A DNA stretch of 64,000 bases from an uncultured Verrucomicrobia subdivision 3 bacterium (lineage in GTDB: Bacteria > Verrucomicrobiota > Verrucomicrobiia > Limisphaerales > UBA11358). Position 1 is the first letter of the stretch, and each line of letters starts with the position of its first letter. Both the position numbers and the translations under genes were made by a program. Positions 20,898 through 26,340 of this stretch are shown here, piece by piece. Location: positions 84,551-148,550 of the forward strand of contig CAIXUZ010000020.1 of assembly GCA_903922735.1 (NCBI GenBank). Direction: 5' to 3'. The notes under the pieces were generated by a model. That model did no database searches, was not told the DNA's origin, and worked only from the letters and a program-made list of their open reading frames with translations.

Positions 20898-23525
20898 ATG
20901 ACTGAACCCGCCATCACCCCAGAGTTGGTTGCCAAGCACAACCTCACGCCGGAAGAATATGCCCACGCCGTGGCCATCCTCGGCCGCACGCCGAGCTACA
21001 CCGAGCTCGGCATCTTTTCCGTGATGTGGAGCGAGCATTGCAGCTACAAAAACACCAAGCCGCTGCTCAAGACCTTCCCCACCAAGTCGCCCAAGATTCT
21101 CGTCGGCGCGGGCGAGGAAAACGCCGGCATCATTGACATCGGCGACGGCATTGCCATCGCGTTCAAGATCGAATCGCACAACCATCCGAGCGCGGTCGAG
21201 CCGTTTCAGGGCGCCACCACCGGCGTCGGCGGCATCGTGCGCGACATCTTCACGATGGGCGCGCGCCCCGTCTGCGCGGTGAACTCGCTGCGCTTCGGGC
21301 CGATCACTTCGGATGTAGGAGACGACGTGAGGAGTCTCAAATCAAATTCCGAAAGGGAGAGTCTCGTCACCTCGACTTCTGCAAAGGGAGAAACGGATTC
21401 CGCTCCTGGGCAAGCCCGGACGCTTTCGGATTCAAGTGCGGCTGGAACCAAGAACCACCCTCTCCCCGGGGGAGAGGGCCGGGGTGAGGGCGGGCAAAAC
21501 CCTGCCGCCGAAGGCGCAAACTCTGAAATCGCAAATCGCAAATCGCAAATCGCAAATAACAAGCGATTGTTCGCCGGCGTCGTCAGCGGCATCGCCCATT
21601 ATGGCAATTGCTTCGGCATCCCGACCGTCGCGGGCGAGGTGTATTTCGATAAGACGTATCAGGGCAACCCGCTCGTGAACGCGTTCTGCCTCGGCGTGCT
21701 GCGGCATGAACAGATCACGCGCGGCGCGGCCAAGGGCGTGGGCAATCCCGTGTTCTACGTCGGTCCGGCCACGGGTCGCGACGGCCTCGCGGGCGCGGCG
21801 TTTGCGTCGCAGGATTTGACCGAGGAATCTTCCGAGCAGCAGCGCGGCGCGGTGCAGGTCGGCGATCCGTTCATGGAAAAACTCGTCTGCGAAGCGTGCC
21901 TCGAACTCCTCGCCACCGGCGCGGTCGCCGGCATGCAGGACATGGGCGCGGCCGGGTTGACCTGTTCCACCTGCGAAATGGCGGCGCGCGCCGGCACCGG
22001 CATCGAGATCGAATTGGATAAAGTCCCGCAGCGCGCGGCGAACATGAGCAGCTACGAGCTCATGCTCTCGGAATCGCAGGAGCGCATGCTCATCGTCGTC
22101 CACAAGGGCCGCGAAGAGGAAGTGAAGCGCATTTTCGACAAGTGGGATCTGCCGTGGTCGGAAATCGGCATCATCACCGACACCGGCCACATGAAGGTGC
22201 GTCACGGTGGCAAACTCGTCGTGGACATCCCCGCGAAGAAGATCGCCGACGAATCGCCGGTCTATCAGCGCGAAGGTGTTGAACCCGCCTATCTCAAAGA
22301 TGTCCGCGCCTTCCGCCTCGCCGGCATTTCCGACACCACGTCGCCTGTCGAAGATTTGAAAAAGCTTTTGGCGTGGCCGAGCATCGCTTCCAAGAACTGG
22401 GTCTATCGCCAATACGATCATCAGGTCCGCGACGGCTCGGTCGTCCTGCCCGGCAGCGACGCCGCCGTCATCCGCATCAAAACGGACTCCTTGCCCGTGA
22501 TGAGCGCGGAGCTTGCCGCCAAAGTCGGCGATCCGACCGTTTCTGATAAGTTGATCGCCATGACCGTGGATTGCAACGGCGGCTACGTTTATCTCGATCC
22601 CTACGAAGGCGCGAAAATCGCCGTGGCCGAGGCCTGCCGCAATCTCGCCTGCTCCGGCGCTTTGCCGCTCGGCGCAACCGACAACCTCAACATGCCCAGC
22701 CCGCTCAAGCCCGAGCTGTTCTGGCAGATCAAGGAATCCGTGCGCGGCCTGGCCGAAGGTTGCCAGGCCTTCAACGCGCCCGTCACCGGCGGCAACTGCT
22801 CGCTCTACAACCAGAATCCCGCCGGCCCGATTGACCCCACGCCCACCATTTCCGTCGTCGGCCTCATCGAGAAGCTCGAGCACGTCACCACCCAATGGTT
22901 CAAGGACGAGGGCGACGCCATCATCCTGCTCGGCTCCGCGGTGGAAGCCACCCCGTTGCAAGGCCTCGGCGGCAGCGCGTATTTGCAAGTCGTCCACGGC
23001 CAGAAAAACGGGTCGCCGCCGCGCTGCGATCTCGAAGTCGCCCGGACGCTCCACACCACGCTCATCGGCCTGATCCAATCCGGCCTCGTGAAGAGCGCGC
23101 ACGATTGCAGCGAAGGCGGCCTCGCCGTCGCGCTCGCCGAAAGCTGCATCAGCCAGCTCATCGCCCGCGAAACCCCGCGCCTCATCGGCGCGACGATTGA
23201 TCTTTCATCGGTGGGGCGAGCGTCCTCGCGAGCCGGTCAATCCGACCCCCTCTCCGCCGTTGGGGGAGAGGGACGGGGTGAGGTGGCTCTTCGCCTCGAT
23301 GCCTTGATGTTCGGCGAAACCCAATCCCGCATCGTCATCAGTTGCAAACCGCTCGACGCCGTAAAGGTGGTCGAACGCGCGAAGCTCATGGGCGTGCCCG
23401 CCGTGCAAATCGGCCAAGTCGGCGGCGACCAGTTGACGGTGAAGACCGCCACCGGCGAATTCTCCGCCCCCCTCACCGAATTGCACGACGCCTGGTGGAA
23501 CAGCATCGCCCGCGCGATGGCGTAA
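20898..23525 (+). CDS. purL: Phosphoribosylformylglycinamidine synthase subunit PurL with two repeat-derived in-frame segments
   Basis: [31 protein letters not shown]...[38 protein letters not shown]...[24 protein letters not shown]. Confidence 0.95.
23412..23523 (+). repeat. Direct repeat copy 1: native 3' end of purL
   Basis: 112 nt, 110/112 identical by eye to 24001-24112. Confidence 0.95.
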
Positions 23526-23694
23526 AATTTTGAATTATGGGACGAATCCGCCGCGCCATGTTCACGTCGAGACGGACAAGGGCAAGCTGATTGGCCGTTT
23601 TGATTTGCAAACCCGGCGCGGGATGGAAGGTTGGCAGCCGGACAAAAAACTGTTAAAGTTGATTACCGATTTGGAAAACGAAGGCCGCCTATGA
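23524..23694 (+). pseudogene. 5'-truncated DUF4160-like remnant
   Basis: Open frame NYGTNPPRHVHVETDKGKLIGRFDLQTRRGMEGWQPDKKLLKLITDLENEGRL* with no start codon, ATGA overlap with the next gene. Confidence 0.5.
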
Positions 23695-23984
23695 AATCAT
23701 TGACCAACCTCAAGAAACCGTTCGGCACTGCCAGGATGGTGCGCATTAAAAGCGTCCGCTATCTGGCGTGGGAAGACGCCTTTGACGTGGAATTTGACGA
23801 CGGTTTGAGCTTTCTGGAACCGCACGCTACCATCCGCAAGGCCAACAAAATTGCCGCCAAAGCCGAACCGGTGGAGATTGTCCTCGAAGCCGAATGTCGC
23901 ATCGGGTTTGACGTGCATTACGACAACGGCCAGACCGCCGAAGTCTCTTGGGCCTTCATCCGCGAACTGCCGCCGAAGAAATAA
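23691..23984 (+). CDS. DUF2442-like small protein
   Basis: RIKSVRYLAWEDAFDVEFDDGLSFLEPHATIRKANKIAAKAEPV...; partner position after a DUF4160-like remnant. Confidence 0.6.
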   Translation: MKSLTNLKKPFGTARMVRIKSVRYLAWEDAFDVEFDDGLSFLEPHATIRKANKIAAKAEPVEIVLEAECRIGFDVHYDNGQTAEVSWAFIRELPPKK

Positions 23985-24000
23985 CATGGTAAAGCTACGG

Positions 24001-24112
24001 GGCCAAGTCGGCGGCGACCAGTTGACGGTGAAGACCGCCAGCGGCGAATTCTCCGCCCCCCTCACCGAACTGCACGACGCCTGGTGGAACAGCATCGCCC
24101 GCGCGATGGCGT
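24001..24112 (+). repeat. Direct repeat copy 2: orphan duplicate of purL 3' end
   Basis: Encodes [37 protein letters not shown] again, 110/112 nt identical to 23412-23523. Confidence 0.95.
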
Positions 24113-24138
24113 GAACCAGCTTTTCAAGCCACGAAATT

Positions 24139-25244
24139 TTGGGGATGACTACCATCGGCCTAAAACCATCCGCGCCGGCAATTTATTCCCATACCGGCTT
24201 GCGGGGGATTGCCGCGATGTATGTCGTTATGTTTCATCTGGGGGGGGTGAAACCGATTTCCAAGCGGCCAATGCATTCTTTCAATTCTTTCATTGGGGCG
24301 GTTATGCGGTGGATCTGTTTTTTATCTTGAGCGGCTTTATTTTGAACTGGGTTTACCTTTCAAACGCGATTCAAATGAACTGGTCGTCTTACTTGCGGGC
24401 GCGGATAGCCAGGATTATCCCGCTTTATTATTTGACCATAATTTTTTGTGCGGCCGTGATTGTTTATAAGCTGGTTAGGTATGGATCCACTTATGGCAAC
24501 CTGGAATTTCCGAAAGATTATGTGTTAAACATTCTATTGCTTTCCGGCATCGTCAGCGGTTGGGAACACACCATAAATGTTCCGTCATGGTCAATCAGCG
24601 TTGAGTTTTTTTGCTATCTGGCGGTCTTTCCCCTGCTGTTTTTGTTGAAGAGGTTTTTGACGGGCAAACCGTACGCCGTGCCTGCCTTGATCGTGATGGC
24701 CGGTATCAGCACCCTGGGGCTGGTGACTTGCTATAATCTGGCTCCCGTTCCGATCTGGCATTGGCATTGGGATGCCAGTTGGTTGGCTCGGGGCATTTGG
24801 GGGTTTTCGACCGGATTTTTTCTGTGCTCTCTTCACCAGAAAACTACATTCTGGAAGCCGGGCGGTGCTTTAATTGACTGCGTGTATTTAATCTCCATCG
24901 GCATGTTTTTCCTCGTCGTCTTCAAATTCATGCCCAGTCAGCATGTGCTTTATGCCCTGCCTTTTCTCGTCTTTTTCTCTGCCACCGACCGGGGCTTGGC
25001 GGCCGGCCTGTTAAAAACGAAACCGTTTCAATGGCTGGGCGAGCGATCCTATTCAATCTACCTGTGGCATATGGTTTGCCTGGGCAGTTATACTTATTTC
25101 CTCCATGCCCGCCTGTCGGAATTCGGCTACGACCTGGTTGTGCTGGCTTTAATTCTCGGAATTTCTGAATTGTCGTATCGCTTTTTTGAATGCCCATGCC
25201 GGGAATACCTTCGGAAGTTTCCCCGTCCTGTCTCTCCGGGCTGA
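24139..25244 (+). pseudogene. OafA/YrhL-type acyltransferase 3, out of frame across a G8 tract (pseudogene or phase-OFF allele)
   Basis: N-terminus IYSHTGLRGIAAMYVVMFHLGG in one frame, FFHWGGYAVDLFFILSGFILNWVYL...ARIARIIPLYYLTII in another; frames meet at 24240-24247. Confidence 0.8.
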
Positions 25245-25426: not shown

Positions 25427-25483
25427 CCGTGGGCTTATGAAATTGAACCCCGCTGCCCGGCCAGCATGGTCCTTGGCGCCGGT

Positions 25484-26340
25484 CACGTCGCATCGCCGTC
25501 GCTGCCATTTCTGTTTGCCGACACCAGCGACGCGGCGCGCGTTCGTTGGAATCGCGACCGTCTGCCGCACCGCGAAAAATTGTCGTCGTAATTTAGCCCA
25601 TCCAACGCTGCGGAGCAGCGCGCGATAATAGCCCATGGCGCGAGCTATGGGTTCAGGGTTCAAAACGGAAAAGCTCCAGCAGGAGCGGCAGAAAAAACCG
25701 ATGCCGTCTTCTTTCGCCGCTCTGCGGCTTGATTTGTTATACGATCACACCCACGGCTGACGCCGTGGGCTGCTTTCTCCCCCCGCTCCGCGGCTGACAA
25801 AGCCACCGTGGTCTTTTCCGCCGGCCACGTCGCATCGCCGTCGCTGCCATTTCTGTTTGCCGACACCAGCGACGCGGCCTTGGTGCGCTGGAACCGCGAC
25901 CGTCTGCCGCACCGCGAAAAATTGTCGTCGTAATTTAGCCCATTCAACGCTGCGGAGCAGCGCGCGATAATAGCCCATAGCGCGAGCTATGGGTTCAGGG
26001 TTCAAAACGGAAAAGCTCCGGCAGGAGCGGCAGAAAAAACCGATGCCGTCTTCTTTCGCCGCTCTGCGGCTTGATTTGTTATACGATCACACCCACGGCT
26101 GACGCCGTGGGCTACTTTCTCCCGCCGCTCCGCGGCTGACAAAGCCACCGTGGTCTTTTCCGCCGGCCGCGTCAAATAGCCGACGGTGAAATTCCTGTTT
26201 GCAGACACGAGTGGCGAAGCGTTATCTCGCTGGAAGTCCTGGCGGCCAGCCACCGACCATCTGCCGCCCCGAGAAAAATTGCCGTAGCGGCTTTCGGCAG
26301 AAAGCCGCCATCTAATAAGCCCCGGAGAATTTTGCGGCGC
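25484..26340. repeat. Tandem duplication of a 342-bp palindrome-rich unit (two near-identical units plus a diverged partial third)
   Basis: CACGTCGCATCGCCGTCGCTGCCATTTCTGTTTGCCGACACCAGCGACGCGGC at 25484 and 25826; related sequence from 26168; contains CCCACGGCTGACGCCGTGGG. Confidence 0.85.

Follow-up and report, generated by a model that had tools for sequence, protein, structure and literature searches.

Does a run of eight G residues in a membrane acyltransferase gene act as a switch that turns the gene ON and OFF, does it mark where a gene no longer under selection first broke, or is it a miscounted homopolymer in an otherwise intact gene? This question is raised by a frame break in the window (i.e., the whole 64-kb stretch of DNA analyzed here), for which an earlier note, made from the letters of the sequence, had proposed candidate phase variation, with the present sequence as a possible OFF allele. 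We addressed it by analyzing the frames of the gene, its orthologues in related genomes, and the other G/C tracts of the same assembly and of other genes of the family.

An acyltransferase-3 gene divided between two frames

The assignment of the broken gene to the acyltransferases was borne out by profile searches. More specifically, the downstream frame matched Pfam Acyl_transf_3 (PF01757) with an E value of 3.9e-23 over profile positions 37-321 of 326, and a profile built from acyltransferase-3 (AT3) homologues of the genus aligned with the start frame at columns 24-47 and with the second frame at columns 49-372. Two motifs have been reported as essential in AT3 proteins (PMC9558356): the first helix (TM1) carries R/K-X10-H, and the first cytoplasmic loop carries RXXR. 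By motif scan, the window gene has both of them, i.e., RGIAAMYVVMFH (His codon at 24235) and RIAR, in different frames (Table 1). A sequence search for a solved structure of the protein returned no match. Judged by these family matches, the gene is predicted to encode a stand-alone AT3 membrane protein that most likely acylates a surface or exported glycan. According to the ORF list of the window, it lies alone behind purL, with no surrounding glycan cluster.

As the earlier note had it, the two frames of the gene meet at the G8 run (Table 1). They lie one base apart, so that they fuse whenever the number of Gs is a multiple of three, and the arithmetic by which nine or six Gs would restore one ORF is right. 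From its ATG, the start frame gives MTTIGLKPSAPAIYSHTGLRGIAAMYVVMFHLGG followed by 27 out-of-frame residues and stops at TGA 24328-24330, for a product of 61 aa in the OFF reading. The run starts at the end of the codon next to that of the histidine, one codon past R-X10-H, and it separates the catalytic helix from all of the remaining protein. Other disabling mutations, which had been named beforehand as grounds against a switch, were looked for in the window copy, and no second defect is visible across the 331 downstream codons.

The downstream frame is open 5'-ward as far as a GTG in the ORF list (Table 1), and a gene caller would list the resulting 386-aa ORF as an intact acyltransferase. 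Its residues before approximately codon 55 are out-of-frame translation and the true first helix is missing, so that automatic calling from this wrong start conceals the frame break, which makes the locus an annotation trap.

Apart from the G8 tract, no run of G or C in the 64-kb window reaches a length of 7, and there are ~35 distinct G/C runs of at least 8 in the 4.48-Mb assembly. Because the frame break coincides exactly with so rare a run, its position exceeds what chance would give. Glycine codons of the window genes are mostly GGC (192, versus 22 GGG), and the GGG run of the AT3 gene is kept in both the window and a sister species (see below), whereas a nearby Gly codon differs between the two (GGG versus GGA).

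Table 1. Coordinates of the AT3 locus in the window, and loci and positions of the other tract-associated frame breaks in the same assembly
Feature	Position	Strand	Description
purL (FGAM synthase)	20898..23525	+	Conserved upstream neighbor of the AT3 gene in G000 (window genome), G013, and G009
Spurious 386-aa ORF, GTG start	24084..25244	+	From the ORF list and comparison with intact homologues
AT3 5' part, start frame	24145..24330	+	ATG, first transmembrane helix with R-X10-H, shifted tail to TGA
G8 homopolymer at AT3 frame break	24240..24247	+	Run read from the window sequence
AT3 remainder, second frame	24249..25244	+	331 codons uninterrupted, RXXR codons from 24402; PF01757 match
RCC1-repeat/DUF11 protein	L056 1501		G/C8-9 tract at frame break
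Prepilin-like protein	L053 1302		G/C8-9 tract at frame break
RecQ, before HTH_40 domain	L051 1501		G/C8-9 tract at frame break
TPR protein	L057 1501		G/C8-9 tract at frame break
GH42-like protein, before CBM9 domain	L079 1501		G/C8-9 tract at frame break

The locus behind purL in related genomes

A comparison of related genomes, as proposed in the earlier note, yielded a second tract length and no in-frame allele. The sister species (VK1_bin-0319; G013) has an AT3 orthologue directly behind purL at 86% DNA identity, with a G10 run at the site of the window G8. Its frame is also broken, but differently, in that the G10 places a TGA immediately 3' of the tract. A DNA search of 49 genus genomes yielded only the G8 copy, the G10 copy, and one that is truncated; likewise, we detected no in-frame orthologue by protein search of genome contigs or, as an exact pattern, in viral contigs. 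More distant homologues in G033, G015, and L031 (40-44% identity) are encoded in a single frame and carry no tract.

To compare the window and the sister species on both sides of the tract, 50 codons were available, for which dN was 0.082 and dS was 0.376 (purL, 0.043 and 0.386, respectively). By these values, purifying selection has acted on the AT3 codons on either side of the tract. Taken together with the G8/G10 difference, this indicates that the two lineages kept the tract, and came to differ in its length, during a time when the protein was still being conserved.

The relatives carry further damage. After approximately codon 53, the sister-species gene enters a 105-base stretch that adjoins an IS3-type transposase and is shared by 19 genus genomes, in which it is often located where a contig ends; by this recurrence and the adjoining transposase, the stretch is the end of an IS3-like mobile element. 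In G009, only the first AT3 codons are left, followed by an IS630-like transposase region. As assembled, all three copies behind purL (3/3; G000, G013, and G009) are therefore broken, which fits a gene being lost and also fits a gene that is often OFF.

These observations bear directly on the possibility that the AT3 gene is no longer selected in the clade, in which case the G tract would merely be the hot spot of the first inactivating indel and there would be no switch. Consistent with such decay, none of the three copies is functional as assembled (G8; G10 plus the IS3-like end; IS630-like truncation), the other members of the genus searched by DNA (49 genus genomes) lack this AT3 gene behind purL, and the two mobile elements suggest loss of the gene rather than its maintenance. 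Decay is less easily reconciled with the 331 undamaged codons of the window copy or with the low dN/dS that the codons comparable with the sister species show to either side of the tract, and loss in a sister species is also to be expected of a phase-variable gene that is often OFF. On this evidence, we consider decay somewhat unlikely, although it is the strongest of the alternatives.

Duplications lie on either side of the gene in the window. One of them repeats the final 115 bases of purL (23412-23526 and 24001-24115, 97% identical), and the ~475-base insert between the two copies holds a small ORF (23631-23984) that has no Pfam match and is DUF2442-like by eye; the sister species has neither the insert nor the duplicated purL end, and its acyltransferase gene follows purL directly. 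A duplication of ~480 bases (25460-25928 / 25802-26285, 88% identical) is located 3' of the acyltransferase gene, before genes for a 2-oxoacid:ferredoxin oxidoreductase.

Other G/C tracts in the same assembly

By means of coding-potential scoring and Pfam searches, we found five further G/C8-9 tracts of the window's assembly at frame breaks (Table 1). For the recQ, GH42-like/CBM9, and RCC1 proteins, known domains were matched by both halves. Rejoining the six broken tracts (AT3 included) requires +1 in three cases and -1 in the other three. In this assembly, long G/C tracts in general have thus changed length or been miscounted, which is not special to surface genes, and recQ is not plausible as a contingency gene. 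That such breaks are general, recQ among them, weakens the case for selection of a switch at the AT3 gene in particular.

The same breaks raise the possibility that the consensus or assembly is miscounted, i.e., that the run really has nine Gs (G9) and belongs to an intact, constitutively expressed gene. The five other breaks would be explained in this way, including that in recQ, whose broken C-terminal domain selection should not favor, and the window genome is a draft assembly (82 contigs, 5.6% contamination). In contrast, ~20 other homopolymers of 6-8 nt within window reading frames of good coding signal leave those frames unbroken, and the window is not a generally noisy sequence. Moreover, the implied error is mixed in sign across the six tracts, and in the sister species, which was assembled separately, the run departs by one from the in-frame length in the opposite direction. 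Noisy long reads typically undercall homopolymers, which is a one-sided error, and we set this particular source low in view of implied shifts of both signs. Overall, a miscounted tract appears unlikely.

The full-length protein could in principle also be made by programmed -1 ribosomal frameshifting, or by slippage of RNA polymerase along the Gs, at a perfect slippery heptamer in the start frame (G-GGG-GGG), from which a -1 step enters the downstream frame directly (GGT GAA). We rate such recoding as very improbable because the G8 requires a -1 step and the G10 orthologue the opposite one (+1, at the TGA stop), so that the frame relation at the slippery site, which is conserved among orthologues in programmed frameshifting, is not conserved here, and the three more distant homologues are single-frame genes with no tract. 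Some leaky transcriptional slippage at the G8 may occur.

Tracts in other acyltransferase-3 genes

When 140 other AT3 loci of the genus were examined, three proved to hold a G/C run of at least 8, which is about the genome-background expectation, i.e., there is no clear excess of tracts in these genes. One of the three, an unrelated AT3 gene of genome G005 (L166 424-433), has its frame broken at a G10 immediately past the first helix, with its remainder intact; this is the same break architecture and, as a single case, is suggestive. When 384 genomes of the class were searched for TTYCAYYTG followed by a G tract, three matches were obtained besides the window and the sister species; L096, the match for which we read the frames, proved not to be an AT3 gene.

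Among 30 AT3 loci of another genus of the class, one coding sequence has a C8 at its start, two loci have a G9 run just upstream of the gene (L263 1416 and L267 633), and a G10 is located ~280 codons past the start of an AT3 reading frame. The G9 run of L267 follows a TATACT sequence. No frame break was seen at the C8, G9, and G10 tracts of this 30-locus set, and these tracts do not suffice for a claim of enrichment. Being upstream of their genes, the two G9 runs are possibly promoter-type tracts.

A broader reading is that homopolymer tracts of G or C serve the environmental Verrucomicrobia of this genus as a contingency system of general use. It draws on four G/C8-9 frame breaks in one genome (in the genes for the surface acyltransferase, a secreted RCC1-repeat protein, a prepilin-like protein, and a secreted glycoside hydrolase with CBM9) and on the G10 break past the first helix of the unrelated second acyltransferase, and we regard it as quite doubtful.

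A tentative model of phase variation by slippage

Phase variation by slippage is the best explanation that we can offer for the AT3 locus, and its parts are not equally secure. Slippage at the tract is well supported, by comparison of the orthologous sequences, as the source of the G8/G10 difference. A selected and reversible ON/OFF phase variation of the window gene is put forward tentatively, with a chance that we place a little below even. In the model, the G run one codon past the catalytic histidine would be a slippage hot spot at which slipped-strand mispairing adds or removes a single G, so that the gene moves reversibly between ON and OFF. It would be ON whenever the number of Gs can be divided by three, which in this lineage probably means G9. 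The window G8 and the sister-species G10 would both be OFF, with the protein ending inside or just after the first helix, and the assembly would have captured the OFF state. The reversibility, the ON cells, the substrate, and the selective benefit are all parts of the model that we infer.

Two features by which phase-variable genes are recognized are present at the locus. First, a one-unit change in the intragenic repeat breaks the protein early; second, the tract length differs between related genomes (G8 versus G10). Work on the Neisseria phasome applied a threshold of at least 9 G/C bases for tracts (PMC5953494), and the window tract of 8 lies below this value, whereas the sister tract has 10. 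Thus, of the proposal of a phase-variable OFF allele, the expected difference in tract length between orthologues was found, but the sister copies proved to be further broken and the tracts of recQ and other genes are broken as well.

Poly-G phase variation is best known from host-associated bacteria. If the window gene does vary, as mixed tract lengths would reveal, the switching of glycan enzymes would extend to uncultured environmental Verrucomicrobia, for which the likely drivers would be phages or grazers rather than immunity.

Comparison with known systems

The closest precedent by phylum is Amuc_1413 of Akkermansia muciniphila, which functions in exopolysaccharide export and is full length at G9 and truncated early at G8 or G10; its tract gave mixed-length reads in culture and differs in length between genomes (PMC13055324). 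Amuc_1413 and the window gene belong to the same phylum, and both are surface-glycan genes with a G tract near the start. They differ in that the former is a Wzz-type EPS gene whose length change was seen in culture, whereas the window gene is known from assemblies alone. A second A. muciniphila gene, Amuc_2098, is given in the paper on that genome as an acyltransferase with a C10 repeat (PMC3048395). As listed there, it resembles the window gene in being a same-phylum acyltransferase gene with a long G/C homopolymer, and differs from it in having no reported frame break.

Outside the phylum, Neisseria pglI codes for an AT3-SGNH pilin-glycan O-acetyltransferase that is phase-variable through a poly-G tract of 9-15 (PMC5953494, PMC9558356). 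Like the window gene, pglI is an AT3 acyltransferase gene with an intragenic G tract, which in pglI switches expression ON and OFF; unlike it, pglI has a fused SGNH domain and a tract of 9-15, and its phase variation is established, whereas that of the window gene is a candidate. Similarly, oafA of Haemophilus influenzae, which codes for a lipooligosaccharide (LOS) O-acetyltransferase, is an AT3 gene of phase-variable expression (PMC9558356), in this case in an established pathogen system. The mechanism is already known, including from the same phylum, and the window AT3 gene is a new candidate for it from an uncultured environmental lineage.
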